NCBI GenBank assembly: GCA_036488875.1
Contig: DASXGW010000004.1
Coordinates: 186,001 to 250,000 of the forward strand
Origin: Candidatus Baltobacteraceae bacterium
GTDB lineage: Bacteria; Vulcanimicrobiota; Vulcanimicrobiia; Vulcanimicrobiales; Vulcanimicrobiaceae
Direction of reading: 5' to 3'
DNA: 64,000 nucleotides
This document shows positions 14,234-51,055 of this stretch, in pieces; within the stretch, counting starts at the first letter, position 1, and each line of letters starts with the position of its first letter. Under the pieces are notes generated by a model. It made no database searches, was not told where the DNA came from, and worked only from the letters and a program-made list of their open reading frames with translations. The translations under genes and the position numbers were made by a program.

Positions 14234-16090
14234 GTGCATATTGTGGGCACGGCGGGTCACGTCGACCACGGTAAATCGTCTCTCGTCGCGGCGCTGACCG
14301 GGACGAATCCGGACCGTTGGCTGGAAGAACGGTTGCGCGGGATGACGCTCGATTTGGGATTCGCGCACCTCGTTCTCGACGGCGGAGTCGAAGCCGGTAT
14401 CGTCGACGTTCCAGGTCACGAGCGCTTCTTGCACAACATGCTTGCCGGCGCGGCCGGCATGGACGTCTTGCTGCTGGTCATCGACGCCAACGAAGGCGTG
14501 AAGCCGCAGACGCGCGAGCACCTTGACGTCTTACGTTACCTCAACGTACGCCGTACGGTCGTCGCGTTGACGAAGGTCGATCTGCTTTCCGATTCCGAAT
14601 TCGCCGCAGCGAGCGAGGCAATCGCGCACGATCTTCGCGGAACCATCGCCGGCGATGCGCCGATGCTCGGCGTTTCGAGTGTCACGGGCGCTGGCCTCGA
14701 CGACCTTCGCTCGATGCTCGCGCAGACGCTCGCGTCGCTTCCGGTGCGCGACGCCGAAGCGCCGCTCTATCTTCCCGTCGATCGCGTCTTTGCGTTGCCC
14801 GGTCTCGGCACGGTCGTGACCGGCACCCTGATGCAGGGACGGATTCGCACCGGCGATACCGTCACGTTTGCACCGAGCGGAAAAGGTGCGCGCGTGCGCA
14901 GTCTACACGTCTTCGGTAAGCAGCGCGACGTCGTCGAAGCCGGCTCGCGCGTCGCGCTGAACGTTCCCGCCGTCGACCGGCGCGACATCGCGCGCGGAGA
15001 AGCCGGCGTCGGGCGTGAGTTTTCCGGGCGAACGAACTTGGACGTGCGGTTCACGCCGCTGCCCGATACGATGCGCCTGCTGCAGCGGCGCACGCCCGTG
15101 CACGCGTACGTCGGCTCGGCGGAGATTCTCGGAACGCTGCTGCTCGAGGGGAGCCCGGAGCTCAAAGAGATGCGCGCGCGCTTAGTGTTGCGCACGCCCG
15201 TCGTCGCCTTTCCCGGAGTGCGATTCGTGGTACGGCGCCTTTCACCGCACGCGTTGCTGGGTGGCGGATTCGTCGAAGGAATCGATGCAAGCGCGCCGAG
15301 CGACGGTGTCGCGGCGCCGGCGGAGCTCGCCGTAAGCAACGTGCTTGCGAAGGCCGGAGCCGATCCGATCCTTCCCGGCGACATTGCCGTCGCGGCGAAC
15401 CTGCGCGAAGAGGTCGTCGCCAAGACGCTCGACGCGCTCGTCGAGCGAGGCGACGCGGTTCGCGTGGCACGTCCCGTGGCGTACGTGCACGCGGGCGCCG
15501 CGCGCGAATATCTGGGCGCGGTCAACGTCCATCTCGACGAACTGCACCGCGCCGAGCCGTGGGCGATGGGAGCGACGTCGATCACGATCGCGCGCGCCAC
15601 GAACAAGCCCGAAGCCCTCGCGGTTCGGTTGTTGTCGGCGTTTGCCGAGGAAGGCAGAATCGCCAACCGCGCGGGTTACTACGCGGCGGTCGACTTCACG
15701 CCGGCGCTTACCCCCAAGCAGCGCGAGTTCTTCGATACGCTCGTTAACGTCGAACCGAGCCAACCGTTCGTTCCCGCGCCGTTCGAGGAAGTTGCATCGG
15801 TGGTACGAAAGGCCCAGCTTCCCGGTGCGGCCAAGGCGTTCGACACGCTGCTCGCGCGGGGTGCGTTGGTAAAGGTGGGTGACTTTCTCTATAGGGGGTC
15901 GCAGATAGCGCAAATCCAGGCGCGCGTCGAGCAGCTCTTGATGCGGACCGGCAAGATGACCGCCTCGGAGTTTCGCGATCTGCTGGGAACCTCACGAAAA
16001 TACGCCGTGCCGCTGCTCGAATGGCTCGACGCGCGCGGCATCACGCTTCGTAATGGAGATTACCGCATACTGCGGAAGAGGGGCACGTGA
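14234..16090 (+). CDS. selB: Selenocysteine-specific elongation factor SelB
   Basis: A 618-residue translational GTPase, the same length class as E. coli SelB. G1 GHVDHGKS is at residues 8-15, the [10 protein letters not shown] switch region is SelB-type, then DVPGHE and TKVD. Three EF-Tu-like beta domains follow, and the C-terminal winged helices end in [20 protein letters not shown], which in SelB contacts the SECIS RNA hairpin. It carries Sec-tRNA(Sec) to in-frame UGA codons. GTG 14234 has GAGGG 4 bases upstream; earlier in-frame starts lie inside the amine oxidase. Its stop overlaps the next start (GTGA). The cognate tRNA gene selC lies at 32824-32917. No selA or selD was seen in the window. 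Confidence 0.92.
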
Positions 16091-32823: not shown

Positions 32824-32917
32824 GGGAGTGTACGGGTCTGGTGGCCCGCACGGTCTTCAAAACCGCTGAGGCCGGGGCAACTCGGCTGGTAGGTTCGATT
32901 CCTATACGCTCCCGCCA
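32824..32917 (+). tRNA. selC: tRNA-Sec (anticodon UCA)
   Basis: A 94-base tRNA with selenocysteine-tRNA hallmarks. It has an 8-bp acceptor stem (GGGAGTGT with ACGCTCCC, one G-T pair), a 6-bp D stem with a 4-base loop (CGGGTC-TGGT-GGCCCG) and an anticodon loop CTTCAAA with TCA in the middle. A long variable arm contains GCCG...CGGC, followed by a T arm TAGG-TTCGATT-CCTA and an encoded CCA. It decodes UGA as selenocysteine together with SelB, whose gene is at 14234-16090. Its 3' end is the attachment repeat of the island that follows, so the tRNA is kept intact by the integrated sequence. Confidence 0.93.
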
Positions 32918-33401: not shown

Positions 33402-34328
33402 TTATTCAGTAGGCATTTCCGGGAGAGCTAACTGGCGCTCCTCGACGATACGCGGCCTAGCGTAAGGATTTAAATCGTCTACTTGGTAAACGGTGCTCAT
33501 GTTGTCGTGAACTTTTGTTTTAATAACAGCGGTTTTTCCGGAATCGCCCGAAGTACTGCTAATATCGAAGTCGTCCTTGGTCAAAACGCCAACCTTAGCC
33601 TCCCAAACAAAGGCGCGAAGTCCTCGATTCGCGGTGCCCCGTGTGAACACACCTGCTTCATCTGTGAGAACATACCGGAATGTGATATACGTTCCCGCCT
33701 TTGGCAGATGTCCTTTGGGACGGTTTGTTTCGAGAGCTACCTTGAGTTCTAAGTCAACGGCGGGAGACTTCTGCGGAAGAAGATCGGGATAAGTATGCGG
33801 TCCATTTCTTATGTAAAGGCCGTTCGACGCTTGAGCGATTCCCGCTCCGAGAAGGTTGCCGACCATTGAAGAAAGGTTCGCGAGTTCCACTAAGCCGGCA
33901 AGGCGGTTTGAGCCGTGCGCGATGAGCTGATCGTCGATTATGTCCAGCGTTTCGTAACAATATCTGATCGCTTCAACGAGCATTTCGCATGTTAGGCCGG
34001 TTAGGTGAGTCAACTGCGCTACGTTGTGGCAGAACTCCGTCGAAACGGCTCGTTCGGTTCGCTCGGGAGCTTTTGGCGGCGCGGCTTCGAGACCCGCTCG
34101 CCCTTCGGCCATAGCGACCAAGCCGGAAAGTGGAAACCCTAGGGCTTCGGCGAGCTTCTGCGCCATGCCGAGCGTGGGCTGGGAGTTGCCCTTTTCTAAG
34201 ACGCCGATGTAGGTCCGGTCAATCCCGGCAAGCTCGGCGAGAGACTCATGAGTAAGATTCTGATCGTTGCGCAGTTCTTTTAAGATCGCAAGAAATGCGG
34301 CGACTAGTCCCTCGTCATTTTCCGACAC
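33402..34328 (-). CDS. HTH-XRE protein with a C-terminal PD...ExK nuclease-like region (candidate fused control/restriction protein)
   Basis: A 308-residue protein in two parts. Residues about 8-72 form an XRE/Cro-type helix-turn-helix (LRNDQNLTHESLAELAGIDRTYIGVLEKGNSQPTL), the fold of restriction-modification control (C) proteins. The remainder is not a family I can name, but residues 181-196 read PD(x)9-DLELK, the arrangement of PD-(D/E)xK nucleases (Asp182, Glu194, Lys196). A KGH and a beta-rich FRYVL segment follow, and WEAK at 242-245 is an alternative ExK. It is divergent from the cytosine methyltransferase across a perfect palindrome, exactly where a C protein or restriction enzyme gene is expected. 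The GTG start has no clear ribosome site. The nuclease assignment is an inference; it could be only a regulator. Confidence 0.6.
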   Translation of the reverse strand: MSENDEGLVAAFLAILKELRNDQNLTHESLAELAGIDRTYIGVLEKGNSQPTLGMAQKLAEALGFPLSGLVAMAEGRAGLEAAPPKAPERTERAVSTEFCHNVAQLTHLTGLTCEMLVEAIRYCYETLDIIDDQLIAHGSNRLAGLVELANLSSMVGNLLGAGIAQASNGLYIRNGPHTYPDLLPQKSPAVDLELKVALETNRPKGHLPKAGTYITFRYVLTDEAGVFTRGTANRGLRAFVWEAKVGVLTKDDFDISSTSGDSGKTAVIKTKVHDNMSTVYQVDDLNPYARPRIVEERQLALPEMPTE

Positions 34329-34365
34329 GCGATGAGTCTAGGCGAGGAGGGAAAGCTTGGTCAAC

Positions 34366-34379
34366 GAGAATATATTCTC
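34366..34379. promoter_or_regulatory. Perfect 14-bp palindrome, candidate C-box operator
   Basis: GAGAATATATTCTC is its own reverse complement. It lies in the 68-base gap between the divergent XRE and methyltransferase genes, 4 bases before the methyltransferase ribosome site. C-protein operators sit in this position in type II systems, so binding by the XRE domain is likely (inference). Confidence 0.6.
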
Positions 34380-34383
34380 CACC

Positions 34384-34390
34384 GGAGGTG
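34384..34390 (+). promoter_or_regulatory. Ribosome binding site that sets a TTG start for the methyltransferase
   Basis: GGAGGTG lies 6 bases before TTG 34397, which starts directly on the conserved methyltransferase fold. This argues against a start at 34295, which would add 34 residues unlike any family member and overlap the divergent gene. Confidence 0.75.
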
Positions 34391-34396
34391 CAAGGT

Positions 34397-35554
34397 TTGG
34401 CGTATCGGCTTTTTGATCTGTTCTCTGGAACAGGTGCCTTCTCAAAGGGTTTCGAGAACTCTCTGTCCGCCGAGTACCAAACGGTTTTCTGCAACGACTT
34501 ACTCCCGGTTGCTGTGCGAACCGCTACTGCCAATCATCCCCATGCAAAGTGTGTCAGCGGCGACATAAGAAAGCTTCGACGCGAACACGTCGCGGAGATG
34601 CTCAAGCTACGTCGTGGGCAGGTTGACGTGATAATCGGAGGTCCCCCTTGCCAGGGATTTTCTTCGATAAGGCCTTTTAGATCATCCGAGGAGGACGATC
34701 CACGGAATAGCCTCTTTGAAGAGTTTGCTTCATTCGTAAACTATTTTCGACCAAGAGCACTCGTTATTGAGAACGTCGTTGGGCTCGCGACGCATAAGGG
34801 TGGCGAGACGATCGAGGCAATGCAAACCTGCTTCGAGCAACTCGGCTACGATACCGACTGGCGCATCCTTAACGCGGCCCACTTTGGTATACCGCAGCGT
34901 AGGGAGCGACTTATTTTCATAGGATTGCCACGCGGAGCGAAGATAACGTTCCCTAACCCAACTCACAGTTCCAATGGAAGCACGATTGGCTACCGTGATC
35001 GGACACGCATGCTTTTGCCTGATGAGGATACGCTATTCACCAGGGCGCCAAACCTTGAGCCCGCTATAACTGTGATGGAAGCAATCGGCGACTTACCAAG
35101 GATCGAATCCGGCGAGGAATCACTGGCGTATGACGTAGCACCGACCAATGCGTACCAAGCAGCTAGGCGAAAGGGCTTGACTAAGCTAACGCTCCACGGA
35201 TCGACGAAGCACACCAAGAAGATGCTTCGTATCATCAAACACTCCGGTCCAAATATTTATTCGATACCGAAGCACCTTATAACCAGCGGCTTTAGCTCGT
35301 GTTATTCGCGGCTCGATGGCGACTGCCCATCGGTAACGATCACCGTTAATTTTGTTCATCCGGCATCGAACCGTTGCATACATCCCGTACTGAACCGTGC
35401 CCTTACCCCTAGAGAGGGCGCACGACTGCAGTCATTCGATGACGATTTTGTTTTCTGCGGAAATCGTTCACAGATCGTAAAGCAGATTGGTAATGCCGTG
35501 CCGCCGCTCCTTGGCAAAGTAATAGGCGAGCACCTCGCATCCCTGATCGCCTAG
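34397..35554 (+). CDS. DNA (cytosine-5-)-methyltransferase
   Basis: A 385-residue type II-style C5 methyltransferase with the canonical motifs in order: I (RLFDLFSGTGAFSKGF, residues 4-19), IV with the catalytic Cys (GGPPCQGFSS, Cys85), VI (ENV, 125-127), VIII (QRRER, 167-171) and X (GNAVPP, 365-370). The variable target-recognition region lies between VIII and about residue 300. It transfers a methyl group from S-adenosylmethionine to cytosine in a specific site; the site cannot be read from sequence. TTG 34397 with GGAGGTG is the start. A vsr gene follows after 2 bases, and the probable control/restriction gene is divergent. The gene is AT-richer than the chromosome around it. Confidence 0.93.
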   Translation: MAYRLFDLFSGTGAFSKGFENSLSAEYQTVFCNDLLPVAVRTATANHPHAKCVSGDIRKLRREHVAEMLKLRRGQVDVIIGGPPCQGFSSIRPFRSSEEDDPRNSLFEEFASFVNYFRPRALVIENVVGLATHKGGETIEAMQTCFEQLGYDTDWRILNAAHFGIPQRRERLIFIGLPRGAKITFPNPTHSSNGSTIGYRDRTRMLLPDEDTLFTRAPNLEPAITVMEAIGDLPRIESGEESLAYDVAPTNAYQAARRKGLTKLTLHGSTKHTKKMLRIIKHSGPNIYSIPKHLITSGFSSCYSRLDGDCPSVTITVNFVHPASNRCIHPVLNRALTPREGARLQSFDDDFVFCGNRSQIVKQIGNAVPPLLGKVIGEHLASLIA

Positions 35555-35556
35555 CG

Positions 35557-36000
35557 ATGACCGCACAAGAGGGACACCTCCGGAAATCCCTGCAAACTTC
35601 AGTTCTCGTATCGAGAAGAATGCAGAATGTCGCCACAAGGGACACGCCGTGTGAACTCGCAGCTCGACAAGTTCTTTCGGCCTATCACGTTCGATACAGG
35701 CTCCACCGAGCGGATTTACCGGGTCGGCCTGATATCTTTATCCCGCGCATAAGGGTTGCGGTATTCGTTCACGGCTGCTTTTGGCACTCGCATCATTGTC
35801 CAAAAGGTAGAAGGCAACCGCGGACAAATGTGGCTTTTTGGGCGGTGAAACTCGCTAATACGGTCGCGAGAGATCGTCGCACCGTGCAGCGGCTACGTGC
35901 CGTTGGTATATCTGTCGTAATACTCTGGGAGTGCGAACAACAGACGTTCCTCGCAAATCTAAGGCGTACCATAGGCACGTATCGTCGAACCGCACTGTAA
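35557..36000 (+). CDS. vsr: Very-short-patch-repair (Vsr-type) DNA mismatch endonuclease
   Basis: A 147-residue protein with the Vsr pattern: RDTPCELAARQVL, YRLHRADLPGRPDIFIPRIRVAVFVHGCFWHSHHC and PRTNVAFWAVKLANTVARD, ending in ILWECE. Likely catalytic Asp59 and the Zn/active-site residues His72, Cys74, His77, His79 and Cys81 are present. Vsr nicks next to T:G mismatches that arise when 5-methylcytosine deaminates, so it protects sites modified by the adjacent methyltransferase, whose stop is 2 bases upstream. The classic MSxIR start motif is only partly present (VSRRMQNVATRDT). Confidence 0.9.
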   Translation: MTAQEGHLRKSLQTSVLVSRRMQNVATRDTPCELAARQVLSAYHVRYRLHRADLPGRPDIFIPRIRVAVFVHGCFWHSHHCPKGRRQPRTNVAFWAVKLANTVARDRRTVQRLRAVGISVVILWECEQQTFLANLRRTIGTYRRTAL

Positions 36001-36227
36001 GGCGTAACGTCTGGACGCATGTGGTTTTGACGATTAACGTACCGCCTAGGCTGCCCGTTGCGATGACGCGCGACTAGGACTGGCGGAGCAAATGGTTCGG
36101 AAAGCTCGATTCGCGTCTGAACTTGGGTACTGTACAACCGCGCAGCCGCGGGTGAAAGAAGGATAGGCAGCACCCAACTCGCAAGCTGTGCCACTTCAAA
36201 TAATGCGACTAGCGGAGGCTCTGTTTC
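36001..36227. other. Intergenic spacer inside the island
   Basis: A 227-base gap between vsr and the helicase gene without a convincing reading frame. It ends in the GGAGG ribosome site of the helicase and probably contains a separate promoter. Confidence 0.4.
36214..36218 (+). promoter_or_regulatory. Ribosome binding site for the island helicase
   Basis: GGAGG lies 9 bases before GTG 36228 and supports that non-ATG start. Confidence 0.65.
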
Positions 36228-38534
36228 GTGCCCGACGCGCTCTATTTTGGTACGACATGGCAGACAGCAGGCTGGCTACTCGAACACGAATCTATACGCA
36301 CGCCACTCCTTGACGCACTCAGCGATCCTGAAAAGCTAAAGGTAGTGCAGATGGGACTGTTTAGGCAGGGCCCAGTTCGAATGGTCTATGACGATAAATT
36401 GGGGCTGGTTTGCTTTTGGAACATCGATTATCTTACCGGGTTGGCGGATGAGGGGCTCGGCTTTATCAAGCTTTCTGGGACGTACGGGCTAGTCAATTTT
36501 CCGAGGATTGCCTTTGAAGCGTTCGAACGCGAGCTGACCGTTCTGAACTATCGCTTGCGTAACCTCATATTCGAATCCGCCTACTATCATCAGGACTTCG
36601 AGGACGGTAGTCATAAGGTTCTTGCGGGGAGAGGCACTGAAGCACGCGACTACAGTATCGGCTATGCCGAAACCCAGCTCGCCGTCAGAGCACAGGCGGT
36701 ATCAAGAAAGGTCGTTGTTTGCGTTGGTCCGGAGGGCGACTGGAAGCGCGCTGGCGCTGCGGCAACTGCTGAGCGGGCCATCCTGGGCGACCTCTCTGAG
36801 TCCCTTGTAGAGCGCATAAGCGAAGCGCGAGGCTCTGCTTCACTATTGACGCAAAATGCGCTCGTCGAACTTCGTATGGCAATTAGTCCACCGATACAGC
36901 AGCCGCCGCTCACCGAGGTAACAAGGCGCGCCGGGCCTCTCGCCGTTGAAGAATCCGACAAATATAGAACCGCCGGATGGCCCTTCGAGCAGTGGTTGTC
37001 CGATGGCACCACGCTTTCCGAGGACCAGCTAAATATCCTCATGGGCGATGGTGTCCTCAAGCATCCAATCCGAATAATTGGGCCGGCTGGTGCAGGCAAG
37101 ACTTTGCTAATGCAGTTGATGGCCATGCGACTGCAAACCATCGATCCATCCGCTTCAAAGATAATCTTCATTACGCACAACCAGCCGATGGAGTTAGCTA
37201 TTCGAGAGCGTTTCGCGGTGCTCGGCGCAAAGCAGTTTACTCTGGCCAACAATATAGCCGTGACCACGCTTGAGCGTTATGCAAATGACACACTGCTGCT
37301 AAGGGACGTTAATCTACTTGAGCCGACCAGTGCAGATGCGAAGAATACGCAGCTCGCATTCGTTAATCAAGCGTTTTTGGAGGCCGCAAAGATCAGCGAA
37401 TCCATCGTTAAGGGATCCGATGTACTCGGCGTAATCGCTAAGGACCTTAATACGTTTGGCGAATTTGTGCGGTCCGACTTCTCCGTGGCAATCAAAGCGC
37501 AAAATCTCCAATCCGATAAGACGTCATATGTAAACTCCTCCGTTGCGCTCGGTAAACTGCACGGGATTCTTACGCCTGATGAGCGAGCGGTCGTATATCA
37601 AGCGTTCCAGATATATCAGAATATGCTCGATGAGTACGGCGTGCTTGACACTGATGACGTGGCTCTTACGATGCTTGGAAAATTAAGCTCACCTGTCTGG
37701 CACCACCAGCGCAAATCTATGGGATTTGACTATATATTTGTAGACGAGGCGCAATTGTTCAACGAAAATGAGCGCAAGATTTTTCAGTACCTCGGCAATG
37801 GGAAGCGACCATTTGTGCCAATCGTTCTTGCTCTCGACGAGGGCCAGCAGTTTTTCGGCGAATCGCGGGTAGGTCTAGCTCTTCTTGGGATTAAGGACGC
37901 CGAACGCGAGAATCTTCGATACAATCATCGAATGACGGCTAGAATCGCCGACTTGGCTTTTTACGTGATTTCGCAGAGCACGGAGCTTTTTACGCTGGAT
38001 TTCCCTGACTACACGAAGACCACCGAGACGCCCTCTCACACGTCCGATGGAAGCAAGCCACACTTGGAGCGCGTCGGAGCCGACGAATTTCTATCTAACG
38101 CGGTCGCCCAACTTGTTAGGGACTGTCGCCGCGATGGATTAAGGCAGATTGCGATCGTTTGTTTTAACGAGTCCTACTGGTTGGAGCTCGAAGAGAAACT
38201 CAAGGACAAATTAAAGGACTTGGATTTTTTCCCGATGTTGCGGCGTGGGGAGCGCCCGCGCGGACATAGCTTCACGACCCTTTGCCGGCCGGCAATTGTC
38301 GGCGGCCAGGAGTTCGACGCAGTAATCGCCGTCGGCCTGGAACAGGGGGTCGTTCCAAAATATGTTTCAAATTCGGCACTGCAAACCGCTCTTGAACAGC
38401 AAGCTCTTAGGGATGTGTATGTTACATTTAGTCGCGCGAAGGACAGGCTGACGGTATTGATCGGTAGTCAGGCCGATCCCGCGCCAATTCTAAGGGGTGC
38501 AATTGAGCAGGGCCTTCTCGAAGTCATACCATAG
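36228..38534 (+). CDS. SF1 (UvrD/Rep-like) helicase with an unrecognised N-terminal domain
   Basis: A 768-residue protein. Residues 1 to about 240 are not recognised. Motor motifs follow: Walker A GPAGAGKT (residues 285-292), Walker B YIFVDEAQ (about 502-509), the LDEGQQFF segment, LRYNHRMT (motif IV-like Arg), and the C-terminal GQEFDAVIAVGLEQGVVP and YVTFSRAKDRLTVLIG typical of UvrD_C/SF1 helicases. It should be an ATP-driven DNA translocase. It is the last gene before the right attachment repeat, on the methyltransferase-vsr strand. The N-terminal domain may be a substrate sensor or nuclease; I see no PD-ExK motif there. A defence role is inferred from location. Confidence 0.82.
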   Translation: MPDALYFGTTWQTAGWLLEHESIRTPLLDALSDPEKLKVVQMGLFRQGPVRMVYDDKLGLVCFWNIDYLTGLADEGLGFIKLSGTYGLVNFPRIAFEAFERELTVLNYRLRNLIFESAYYHQDFEDGSHKVLAGRGTEARDYSIGYAETQLAVRAQAVSRKVVVCVGPEGDWKRAGAAATAERAILGDLSESLVERISEARGSASLLTQNALVELRMAISPPIQQPPLTEVTRRAGPLAVEESDKYRTAGWPFEQWLSDGTTLSEDQLNILMGDGVLKHPIRIIGPAGAGKTLLMQLMAMRLQTIDPSASKIIFITHNQPMELAIRERFAVLGAKQFTLANNIAVTTLERYANDTLLLRDVNLLEPTSADAKNTQLAFVNQAFLEAAKISESIVKGSDVLGVIAKDLNTFGEFVRSDFSVAIKAQNLQSDKTSYVNSSVALGKLHGILTPDERAVVYQAFQIYQNMLDEYGVLDTDDVALTMLGKLSSPVWHHQRKSMGFDYIFVDEAQLFNENERKIFQYLGNGKRPFVPIVLALDEGQQFFGESRVGLALLGIKDAERENLRYNHRMTARIADLAFYVISQSTELFTLDFPDYTKTTETPSHTSDGSKPHLERVGADEFLSNAVAQLVRDCRRDGLRQIAIVCFNESYWLELEEKLKDKLKDLDFFPMLRRGERPRGHSFTTLCRPAIVGGQEFDAVIAVGLEQGVVPKYVSNSALQTALEQQALRDVYVTFSRAKDRLTVLIGSQADPAPILRGAIEQGLLEVIP

Positions 38535-49446: not shown

Positions 49447-49667
49447 TGACGCTGAGCCGCATTCTTGAACGGCTCGTACTCCGCGTCGCCGCTGATGACG
49501 AACGCGTGAGGTTCGTACGTGCGCGGCTTGCCGTGGAAAAAGCCCCGAAGGTTCTCCTCGTACGCTTCGTCGTCCCGAGTCACGATTTCAGAATCGAAGC
49601 CTCGTTCGCGTAGCATCGTCGCCGTCGCGGCGGCCTCCGGTTCGTTTTCAAAAGCTGCGATACGCAT
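49413..49667 (-). CDS. Small conserved-looking hypothetical protein (84 aa)
   Basis: Starts MRIAAFENEPEAAATATMLRERGFDSEIVTRDDEAYEENLRGFF, an alpha/beta start reminiscent of small stress-related proteins that handle membrane-protein-like substrates in other genomes; no family is firmly recognised. Codon use looks genuine. Its end overlaps the permease by 34 bases, and it is divergent from the DUF2231 gene across an inverted repeat. Confidence 0.55.
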   Translation of the reverse strand: MRIAAFENEPEAAATATMLRERGFDSEIVTRDDEAYEENLRGFFHGKPRTYEPHAFVISGDAEYEPFKNAAQRHYGFVIRGETD

Positions 49668-49702
49668 GCTTGCCTCCGTTACTGTTTTTGGTCACCGTGC
49701 TG

Positions 49703-49723
49703 TACCCACATAACCTGTGGGTA
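49703..49723. promoter_or_regulatory. 21-bp inverted repeat in a divergent promoter region
   Basis: TACCCACA (49703-49710), spacer TAACC, TGTGGGTA (49716-49723): perfect 8-bp arms. It lies between the divergent small gene and the DUF2231 gene, a typical dimer-binding operator layout. The regulator is unknown. Confidence 0.5.
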
Positions 49724-49737
49724 TGCCTAGATGTGAC

Positions 49738-49743
49738 GGAGGT
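49738..49743 (+). promoter_or_regulatory. Ribosome binding site for the DUF2231 gene
   Basis: GGAGGT lies 7 bases before ATG 49751 and fixes that start over an upstream in-frame one at 49670. Confidence 0.7.
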
Positions 49744-49750
49744 CAGGCAC

Positions 49751-50287
49751 ATGCAAGGCAAGGCGACGGTCGCCGGTCACCCGCTCCATCCGCTTCTCGT
49801 GACGTTCCCCATCGGCAGCTACGTCGCGGCGATAATTGCGGACATCATTTTCCTAACGGGCGGCTCCTCGTTCTGGGCGACGATGAGCATGTGGCTGATT
49901 GCCTTTGGCCTCGCGGGCTCGCTAATTGCCGGGTTTTTCGGCTTCATCGATTACCTGACCGCACCGATGTCGGCGCAAGCTCGCCAGGTCGCCAACTTGC
50001 ACATGATGCTCAACGTAGCGGTGATCATCGTCTTCGGCGTGGCCTTTGCGGCGCGCTATTTCTGGCCGCCGTTCGTCTGGGGACACGTCGCGACGTTCGT
50101 CGGCTTCTGTCTGTTGTTGGTCTCGGGCATTCTCGGCGGAAATCTCGCGCACCAGCATCTCGTTGGTTCGACCGAACGCGACGTCGGCGTCGCACGACGG
50201 GCGGCCGACGACGATTCGGATTTCACGCCGACCGAGCGCATCGCGCGCGAGCGCGAGAAGACCCGCGCGACCAAGGGCAGCATCTGA
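49751..50287 (+). CDS. DUF2231 family membrane protein
   Basis: A 178-residue protein with four membrane helices. The N-terminal GHPLHPLLVTFPIGSYVAAIIADI is the DUF2231 signature (the HPxHPxLVxFPI motif), followed by the TAPMSAQARQVANLHMMLNV loop. Function is unknown; family members may be haem- or cytochrome-associated. The next gene starts immediately after the stop, so they are probably cotranslated. Confidence 0.85.
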   Translation: MQGKATVAGHPLHPLLVTFPIGSYVAAIIADIIFLTGGSSFWATMSMWLIAFGLAGSLIAGFFGFIDYLTAPMSAQARQVANLHMMLNVAVIIVFGVAFAARYFWPPFVWGHVATFVGFCLLLVSGILGGNLAHQHLVGSTERDVGVARRAADDDSDFTPTERIAREREKTRATKGSI

Positions 50288-51055
50288 TTGCGGCTTCGCG
50301 ATAAAGTCGCGATCGTCACCGGCGGGTCGAGCGGCATCGGCGAAGCCGTCGCGGTAGCCTTCGCGCGCGAAGGCGCCTCGGTAGTCATCGACTACCACGG
50401 CAACGCCGAGCACGCGCGCAGCGTCGTCGAGTCGATCGAGGCGCACGGTGGCCGTGCGGTCGCCGTCGGCGCCGACGTCTCGAAGGAAGAAGACGTCAAG
50501 AAACTCGTCGAAGCCGCGGTCGCGGATTTCGGTTCGCTCGATATTCTCGTCAATAACGCCGGCATCGAACGTCAAATGCCGTTTCTCGAAACGCCGCTCG
50601 ACGTGTGGCGGAGTGTGATAGAGACGAATCTTACCGGCGCTTGGATCTGCTCGCAGCTGGCGGCTCGCGAGATGGCCAAGGGAAAACGCGGCGGACGCAT
50701 CATCAACATCTCCTCGGTGCACGAAGACGTCACGATGCCGTCGAACGCTCCCTATTGCGCCTCGAAGGGCGGCATGAAGATGTTGATGCGCACCATCGCC
50801 GTCGAGCTCGCTCCGCTCGATATCACCGTCAATAACGTGTGTCCCGGCGCAATCGACACACCGATTCAAAAGAACCTCGAGAAGGATCCGCATAAGGTCG
50901 AAGAGCTGCTTTCGGAGATTCCGCTGCGCCGCATGGGGTCGCCCGAAGAGGTGGCGGGCTTGTGCGTGTTCTTGGCGAGCGAGGCAGGATCGTACGTTAC
51001 CGGCGCGTCTTATATCATCGACGGCGGAATGACCAAACAATCGGGAAGCTTATAG
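50288..51055 (+). CDS. Short-chain dehydrogenase/reductase, glucose 1-dehydrogenase-like
   Basis: A 255-residue SDR starting at TTG 50288, directly after the previous stop. It shows VTGGSSGIGEAVA (cofactor loop), NNAG, the catalytic Ser in ISSVHED, the Tyr-Lys pair in YCASKGGM, and the CPGAIDTPIQ and YITGASYI-type ends (SYVTGASYIIDGGM). It is closest in style to bacterial glucose 1-dehydrogenases, but SDR substrates are hard to assign from sequence. It ends 2 bases before the convergent cytochrome gene. Confidence 0.85.
   Translation: MRLRDKVAIVTGGSSGIGEAVAVAFAREGASVVIDYHGNAEHARSVVESIEAHGGRAVAVGADVSKEEDVKKLVEAAVADFGSLDILVNNAGIERQMPFLETPLDVWRSVIETNLTGAWICSQLAAREMAKGKRGGRIINISSVHEDVTMPSNAPYCASKGGMKMLMRTIAVELAPLDITVNNVCPGAIDTPIQKNLEKDPHKVEELLSEIPLRRMGSPEEVAGLCVFLASEAGSYVTGASYIIDGGMTKQSGSL

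Follow-up and report, generated by a model that had tools for sequence, protein, structure and literature searches.

Two reviews and a study from 2024 state, in their available text, that prokaryotes have no known transporter specific for selenium (PMC13188914, PMC9312934, PMC11097638). The first of these, a 2026 review, counts more than 110 prokaryotic selenoprotein families and states, in the portions at hand, that a specific system for high-affinity transport of selenium is yet to be identified; in the same portions YraQ is unmentioned and both uses of the word 'permease' refer to SaoP (PMC13188914). The standing candidate for selenium transport is YedE, a membrane protein that co-occurs with SelD and has an invariant Cys (PMC5322559, excerpts), and deletion of YedE and four other loci in M. 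maripaludis revealed no required selenium transporter, as far as the accessible part of that report goes (PMC11097638). SelA and SenB both draw on selenophosphate made by SelD (PMC13188914, PMC10891094, in part). In the described sen cluster, senA-senB-senC, the genes for SenA, SenB and SelD/SenC stand together, and the main text of that description contains neither 'permease' nor 'transport' (PMC10891094); the deep-Sep paper, in its available portion, likewise mentions no permease or transporter. Here, we report a selenocysteine (Sec) decoding system in a 3.7 Mb genome and, directly upstream of its selD, a YraQ-type permease gene with an in-frame UGA, and we relate the distribution of this permease to the selenium genes around it.

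The window is a stretch of 64 kb of this genome (labelled G000; other genomes, loci and contigs carry the prefixes G, L and C). ARAGORN found a single tRNA gene in it, tRNA-SeC(tca) at 32824-32917 on the forward strand, and tRNA-Sec (RF01852) was the sole Rfam match over the gathering score in the window (cmscan, 78.1 bits against 47, E 2.3e-14). The alignment displayed a 6-bp D stem, a long variable arm, the anticodon loop CUUCAAA and a stack of acceptor and T stems of 13 bp, which Rfam draws as 9+4 and which is equivalent to 8+5; the CCA end is encoded at 32915-32917. These features confirm the selC gene of the initial annotation, with its UCA anticodon, 8-bp acceptor, 6-bp D stem and long variable arm. 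It was the one tRNA-Sec over the cut-off in the whole genome, seven other matches (30.9-40.6 bits) lying below 47 bits. The Sec-specific elongation factor SelB (618 aa) is encoded at 14234-16090 on the forward strand, as had been annotated, with a natural GTG start at 14234, a TIGR00475 score of 308.9 bits over the cut-off of 242.25 and the Pfam domains GTP_EFTU, D2, Beta-barrel_SelB and SelB-wing_3. The further statement that selA, selD and selenoprotein genes are absent from the window stood up as well: tblastn with SelA and SelD gave no match inside it, and none of its 108 in-frame TGA candidates was upheld as a selenoprotein by composition and reading, a coarse test. The only candidate whose two flanks both had coding-like composition and good length, the TGA at 50285, was rejected as an ordinary stop between two genes in one frame, with TTG next. 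These two genes (49502-51055), a membrane-protein gene that we take to be DUF2231-like and a presumably SDR-like gene with a TTG start, are parted by the TGA alone and mimic a selenoprotein frame. Adjoining the tRNA-Sec gene downstream, at 33402-38534, genes for an HTH regulator, a C5 cytosine methylase, a Vsr endonuclease and a UvrD-like helicase form a restriction-modification-like island.

The whole-genome search that had been proposed for selA, selD and a formate dehydrogenase with an in-frame TGA found all of them, on C4, C12 and C1. SelA (PF03841, 433.9 bits against a cut-off of 22.8) is encoded at C4:183791-184858, 1.1 to 2.2 kb before the start of the window, and selA, selB and selC lie within 36 kb of one contig, with selD on another. 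SelD (TIGR00476, 369.9 bits against 125; C12:160593) has one in-frame TGA, in the context DCAG-U-ASK. A formate dehydrogenase gene at C4:75437-77341 has an in-frame TGA (DSCNRT-U-HAPS), as does a second gene, FDH-N-like, at about 66 kb on C1 (NQARI-U-HSST); we take the UGA positions in both and in SelD to be the Sec sites known for those families. The formate dehydrogenase set at C4:72700-77400 (L026) appears to be divided between a short N-terminal Fe-S piece and a catalytic subunit encoded apart from it, the latter with the Sec codon; gene names in this interval were read from the sequence, with a family search only for TIGR01591. Another TGA there, C4:72773, was rejected as a Sec codon, being the stop of the short Fe-S subunit, which overlaps an fdhD-like gene (presumably fdhD, named from sequence).

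As in the bacterial Sec-decoding system in general, all of SelA, SelB with its C-terminal winged helix, tRNA-Sec of the bacterial type and SelD are present, and UGA occurs in formate dehydrogenase and SelD; the machinery is no different, its genes are scattered, and by itself it is ordinary. Sec decoding, as initially proposed for this organism from selC and selB, is thus backed by selA, selB, selC and selD together with UGA-containing genes, and the complete system is almost certainly a working one, as judged from its genes. Among 99 genomes of the family, whose named relatives are Candidatus Eremiobacterota or Eremiobacteria, tRNA-Sec was found in 64 and SelD over the cut-off in 76, and the Sec trait is therefore usual in the group. 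SelU/MnmH over the cut-off was found in 0/99, which argues that selenouridine does not explain the SelD of the family. A second selD lies outside the window at C12:115087-116091 (L025:9087-10091), with a TGA at the Sec site (SCVG-U-APN). Its frame is open and its dN/dS to the first SelD is about 0.28, but it has lost 19 of 75 near-invariant columns, presumably including K20, D51, D91 and D227, against 2 of 75 in the first. This copy appears to be either a non-catalytic paralogue of SelD or a gene in early decay. No similar copy was noted elsewhere in the family (98 genomes); two SelDs over the cut-off occur in G088 as well.

When the neighbourhood of selD was read with TGA as Sec, a long frame broken by one TGA was found directly upstream (C12:159479-160558, forward strand). 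It encodes a permease of 359 aa related to E. coli YraQ and matches PF03773 (ArsP_1) with 111.9 bits against a cut-off of 32.3. AAGGAGG precedes its GTG start by five bases and the senA stop precedes it by 19, and the GTG of selD follows about 13-14 bases behind its end. The UGA, codon 131 of 359, takes the place of a Cys that is otherwise invariant in the motif GMM[U/C]TCC. A standard gene call would cut the permease at residue 130 of 359, which bears out the early caution about in-frame TGA codons in this genome. Close orthologues (E < 1e-60) were found in 22/99 family genomes, and in the motif column tblastn showed TGA in 12 and Cys (TGC/TGT) in 10 of them, within GMM[U/C]TCC or a near variant, the protein being conserved on both sides of the TGA. 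In a wider alignment that includes members from E. coli, Paenibacillus and Ligilactobacillus, MM[C/U]TCC was kept in 14/14. A Sec form was found in G025, where tRNA-Sec was not found under a stricter filter, and a Cys form in G078, where neither selD nor tRNA-Sec was found. In G050 the Sec permease (L081, around C9:243069-244451) is interrupted inside the hairpin described below, and the final part of the protein is encoded about 1.4 kb further on; this disrupted gene was left out of the codon and hairpin comparisons.

Constraint at the nucleotide level was found behind the UGA. Among the Sec forms, 81% of synonymous codons were identical in the 14 codons after it (rank 5 of 348 windows, median 53%), against 59% in the Cys forms over the same codons (rank 72 of 354; 21 of the 22 sequences compared). 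An 8-bp hairpin starts 12 nt behind the UGA, and in an alignment of 14 of the 15 Sec sequences 91.3% of its cells were paired, falling to 39-64% when the partners were slid, with a covariation of 0.186 against 0.107 in shuffled alignments (0/500 shuffles as high). The G000 hairpin has a loop of four bases and a stem that is one base out of register, and single-sequence z-scores are modest (-1.9 for G000). A hairpin of partly different sequence stands at the same place in two genomes of a second phylum (G149, G182), and none was predicted behind the UGA of the Sec permease in G184. A tree of 45 sequences, made by a quick method, contained at least five Sec/Cys changes, forced by its starred branches. 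Its rows were 20 of the 22 family permeases (without L062 and L081), 16 of 80 loci from named genomes, 6 of 7 second-phylum copies (the seventh being the L142 gene again) and 3 of 16 matches of a further search; one further set consisted of 47 sequences chosen by hand.

In G000 the permease gene is the middle one in a selenoneine-type operon, with a putative senB on the reverse strand, followed by senA, the permease gene and selD on the forward strand. SenA, the synthase of the selenium antioxidant selenoneine, scored 474.8 bits against 420; SenB scored 299.1 against 300 in G000 and passed the cut-off in L134 and L142. SenA, SelD and the putative SenB stand together as in the described sen cluster, the G000 version of which contains the permease in addition. 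The permease adjoins selD on one contig in 16 of the 22 family genomes that have it (ten on the same strand, five convergent, one divergent); in four of the other six selD is on another contig, and G024, with the permease at a contig edge, and G078 are without a selD over the cut-off. SenA was found in 19/99 family genomes, over the cut-off in 18, and the permease was present in 19/19 of these against 3/80 without SenA (Fisher 1.4e-17, a value that overstates independence because of shared ancestry within the clade). In 18 of the 19 the two share a contig and are no more than about 1.2 kb apart, and in G050 the permease is disrupted. They also come and go together within genera, namely g1 (both in G000, neither in G041), g12 (both in seven genomes, neither in three) and g24 (both in one, neither in one). 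Tested against SelD alone, the permease was present in SelD-positive genomes in 20/22 cases (Fisher 0.09), a comparison that is uninformative because SelD is common.

Outside the family, 51 of the 80 permease loci from named genomes were from Burkholderiales. There the tRNA 2-selenouridine synthase MnmH is encoded directly upstream in 44/51 loci, 28-86 nt away in 42 of the 44, and SelD accompanies MnmH in 18/51; in L140, for example, MnmH scored 541.8 against 266 and SelD is also over the cut-off. Neither MnmH nor another selenium gene was found at the permease locus in the remaining 7/51, no selenium gene was found within 5 kb in 11 of 12 loci outside Burkholderiales and the Eremiobacterota-like group, and none lies near E. 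coli yraQ. Such loci without selenium genes suggest that the family may have a wider substrate, such as thiols or soft metals. The YraQ of E. coli K-12 (b3151, 'permease family protein') is 51% identical to a Paraburkholderia member over the aligned part and keeps GMMCTCC; unlike the G000 permease it is a Cys form with no selenium genes adjacent. On a Ligilactobacillus plasmid the permease gene stands between those for YedE and an aldo/keto reductase, near TusA and PrdA/PrdB. A locus in a MAG titled Bacillota (L142) has a Sec permease gene and, behind it, genes for SenA, SenB and EgtD (the last for hercynine supply), each of these three over the cut-off, in a genome with tRNA-Sec (74.3 bits). 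In this second phylum the permease was found in 5/43 genomes, in seven copies, three with TGA. All three Sec copies (G149, G182, G184) are beside SenA, with SenB and EgtD following in G149, and the four Cys copies were without SenA in the stretches examined. Two of the genomes, G149 (L236/L241) and G182 (L237/L242), have a Cys paralogue at another locus in addition to the Sec permease next to SenA, which makes a natural Sec/Cys pair within a single cell.

Two structure models of the permease were made, the first weak (pLDDT 70.6) and replaced by the second (pLDDT 84, pTM 0.86). In the predicted structure Sec lies between helices H117-130 and H134-146, at the tip of a helical hairpin, and a second hairpin (294-303, 308-320) with a conserved PTAGEVP mirrors it, an arrangement that may belong to the elevator/IT type of transporter fold. 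The best VIA-align rows were ion-transporter folds (Z 8-11.5, where values below about 13 can reflect a common helical arrangement), among them the carriers Pho90, NaDC, DASS, NaS1 (sulfate), ArsB, CNT and TRAP. In carriers of these kinds paired hairpin tips hold the substrate. The best Foldseek match was weak (E 0.028), no clear solved relative was found by sequence, and the weak PDB matches were not read as a new fold. The permease profile also gave a weak match of 19.5 bits to copper ATPases, in the region that binds metal. The nearest named families, SaoE (NF040736, 79.0 bits against 325) and SO_0444 family Cu/Zn efflux (NF033936, 49.2 bits against 300), lie so far below their cut-offs that the permease was not filed under either. 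SaoE, of the same superfamily, is reportedly found beside selenoproteins; in contrast to its context, there were no Sao genes among the neighbours looked at of permeases of the G000 type. An SO_0444 transporter with a predicted Sec form, GenBank-annotated and with the motif UxC, is a distant PF03773-type relative and the one listed in the available part of the 2026 review (PMC13188914), whereas the G000 permease belongs to a YraQ-type subfamily with GMM[U/C]TCC that is tied to selD, senA and mnmH. YedE, for all its likeness as a membrane protein proposed to transport selenium (PMC5322559, excerpts), is of an unrelated family, PF04143.

Some explanations would make less of these observations. 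That selB and selC are relics in G000 is refuted by the presence of selA and selD in the genome; there are four UGA genes besides, tRNA-Sec is found in 64 of the 99 family genomes, and the probability left to this reading is negligible. The Sec trait could also be an ordinary one that serves formate dehydrogenase and SelD, with the permease TGA as a stop in a decayed or split gene and its adjacency to selD due to chance. Formate dehydrogenase and SelD are a common bacterial selenoproteome, which counts for this account, as does the z-score of only -1.9 for the G000 hairpin. However, the Sec/Cys pair occupies the column in 22/22 orthologues, the protein is conserved behind the TGA, the codon constraint is seen in Sec forms only and is accompanied by the hairpin, the tree has five switches and the same UGA recurs in a second phylum, and an ordinary stop is on this evidence very improbable. 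Judged from these comparisons it is highly probable that the permease UGA encodes Sec, and the permease appears to constitute a new family of selenoproteins whose selenium context is unusually coherent.

A role of the permease in selenium metabolism is likewise quite likely from its gene contexts, and the alternatives then concern what it moves. As the product transporter of the sen operon it might carry selenoneine or a selenosugar intermediate, as would fit its presence in 19/19 family SenA genomes, near SenA in 18, and its position beside senA-senB-egtD in G149; the Burkholderiales permease, however, sits behind MnmH and not SenA in 44/51 loci (counted at the level of loci) and E. coli has yraQ but no SenA, and this substrate is considered unlikely. 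That the permease expels soft metals or metalloids (arsenical, copper, mercury) and stands in selenium operons to shield selenol chemistry from metals is more doubtful still: the nearest named families, SaoE at 79.0 and SO_0444 Cu/Zn at 49.2 bits, are efflux systems and there is the weak copper-ATPase metal-binding match of 19.5 bits, but both families are far below their cut-offs (325 and 300) and the neighbours, as far as the loci were searched, are selenium genes. MnmH uses selenophosphate. The permease goes with SelD, MnmH or SenA/SenB and not with one product, and their common denominator, selenophosphate, points most simply to a carrier of selenium. Inorganic or small selenium species are held to be a somewhat better candidate cargo than selenoneine.

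The best explanation overall, and a probable one, is a complete Sec system together with a Sec permease that moves selenium species. SelB and tRNA-Sec would recode the permease UGA with the aid of the 8-bp hairpin 12 nt on, and Sec, or Cys in sister lineages, would come to lie at the tip of a re-entrant hairpin, where similar transporter folds hold their substrate. A selenol at this tip could bind selenide, selenenyl-sulfides or a soft metalloid, and the permease may carry selenium, as a reduced or a thiol-bound species, through the inner membrane, a movement that would balance the supply of selenide to SelD. As its synthesis needs Sec, the permease would be made only when selenium is sufficient; this dependence and the efflux names of the nearest families make export of excess selenium slightly likelier than uptake, and we lean narrowly towards export.

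No description of a Sec YraQ-type permease was found in the literature searched, the Haft papers on selenoprotein neighbourhoods being a place that could contain one. The permease would add a Sec-containing inner-membrane permease to the prokaryotic selenoproteome, with repeated Sec/Cys exchange at one transporter residue. The YraQ-type family becomes a concrete candidate for a selenium transporter, one that gene order associates with selD, mnmH and senA across separate phyla and that is present in E. coli K-12. It may even be, though we hold this tentatively and at somewhat less than even chances, that YraQ-type permeases are the long-missing dedicated bacterial selenium transporters, common to the selenocysteine, selenouridine and selenoneine traits, and that the transporter of Eremiobacterota and of a second phylum is a selenoprotein in its own right. 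If so, synthesis of the Sec permease would report on the very element that it moves, and E. coli yraQ would be the model member of the family.
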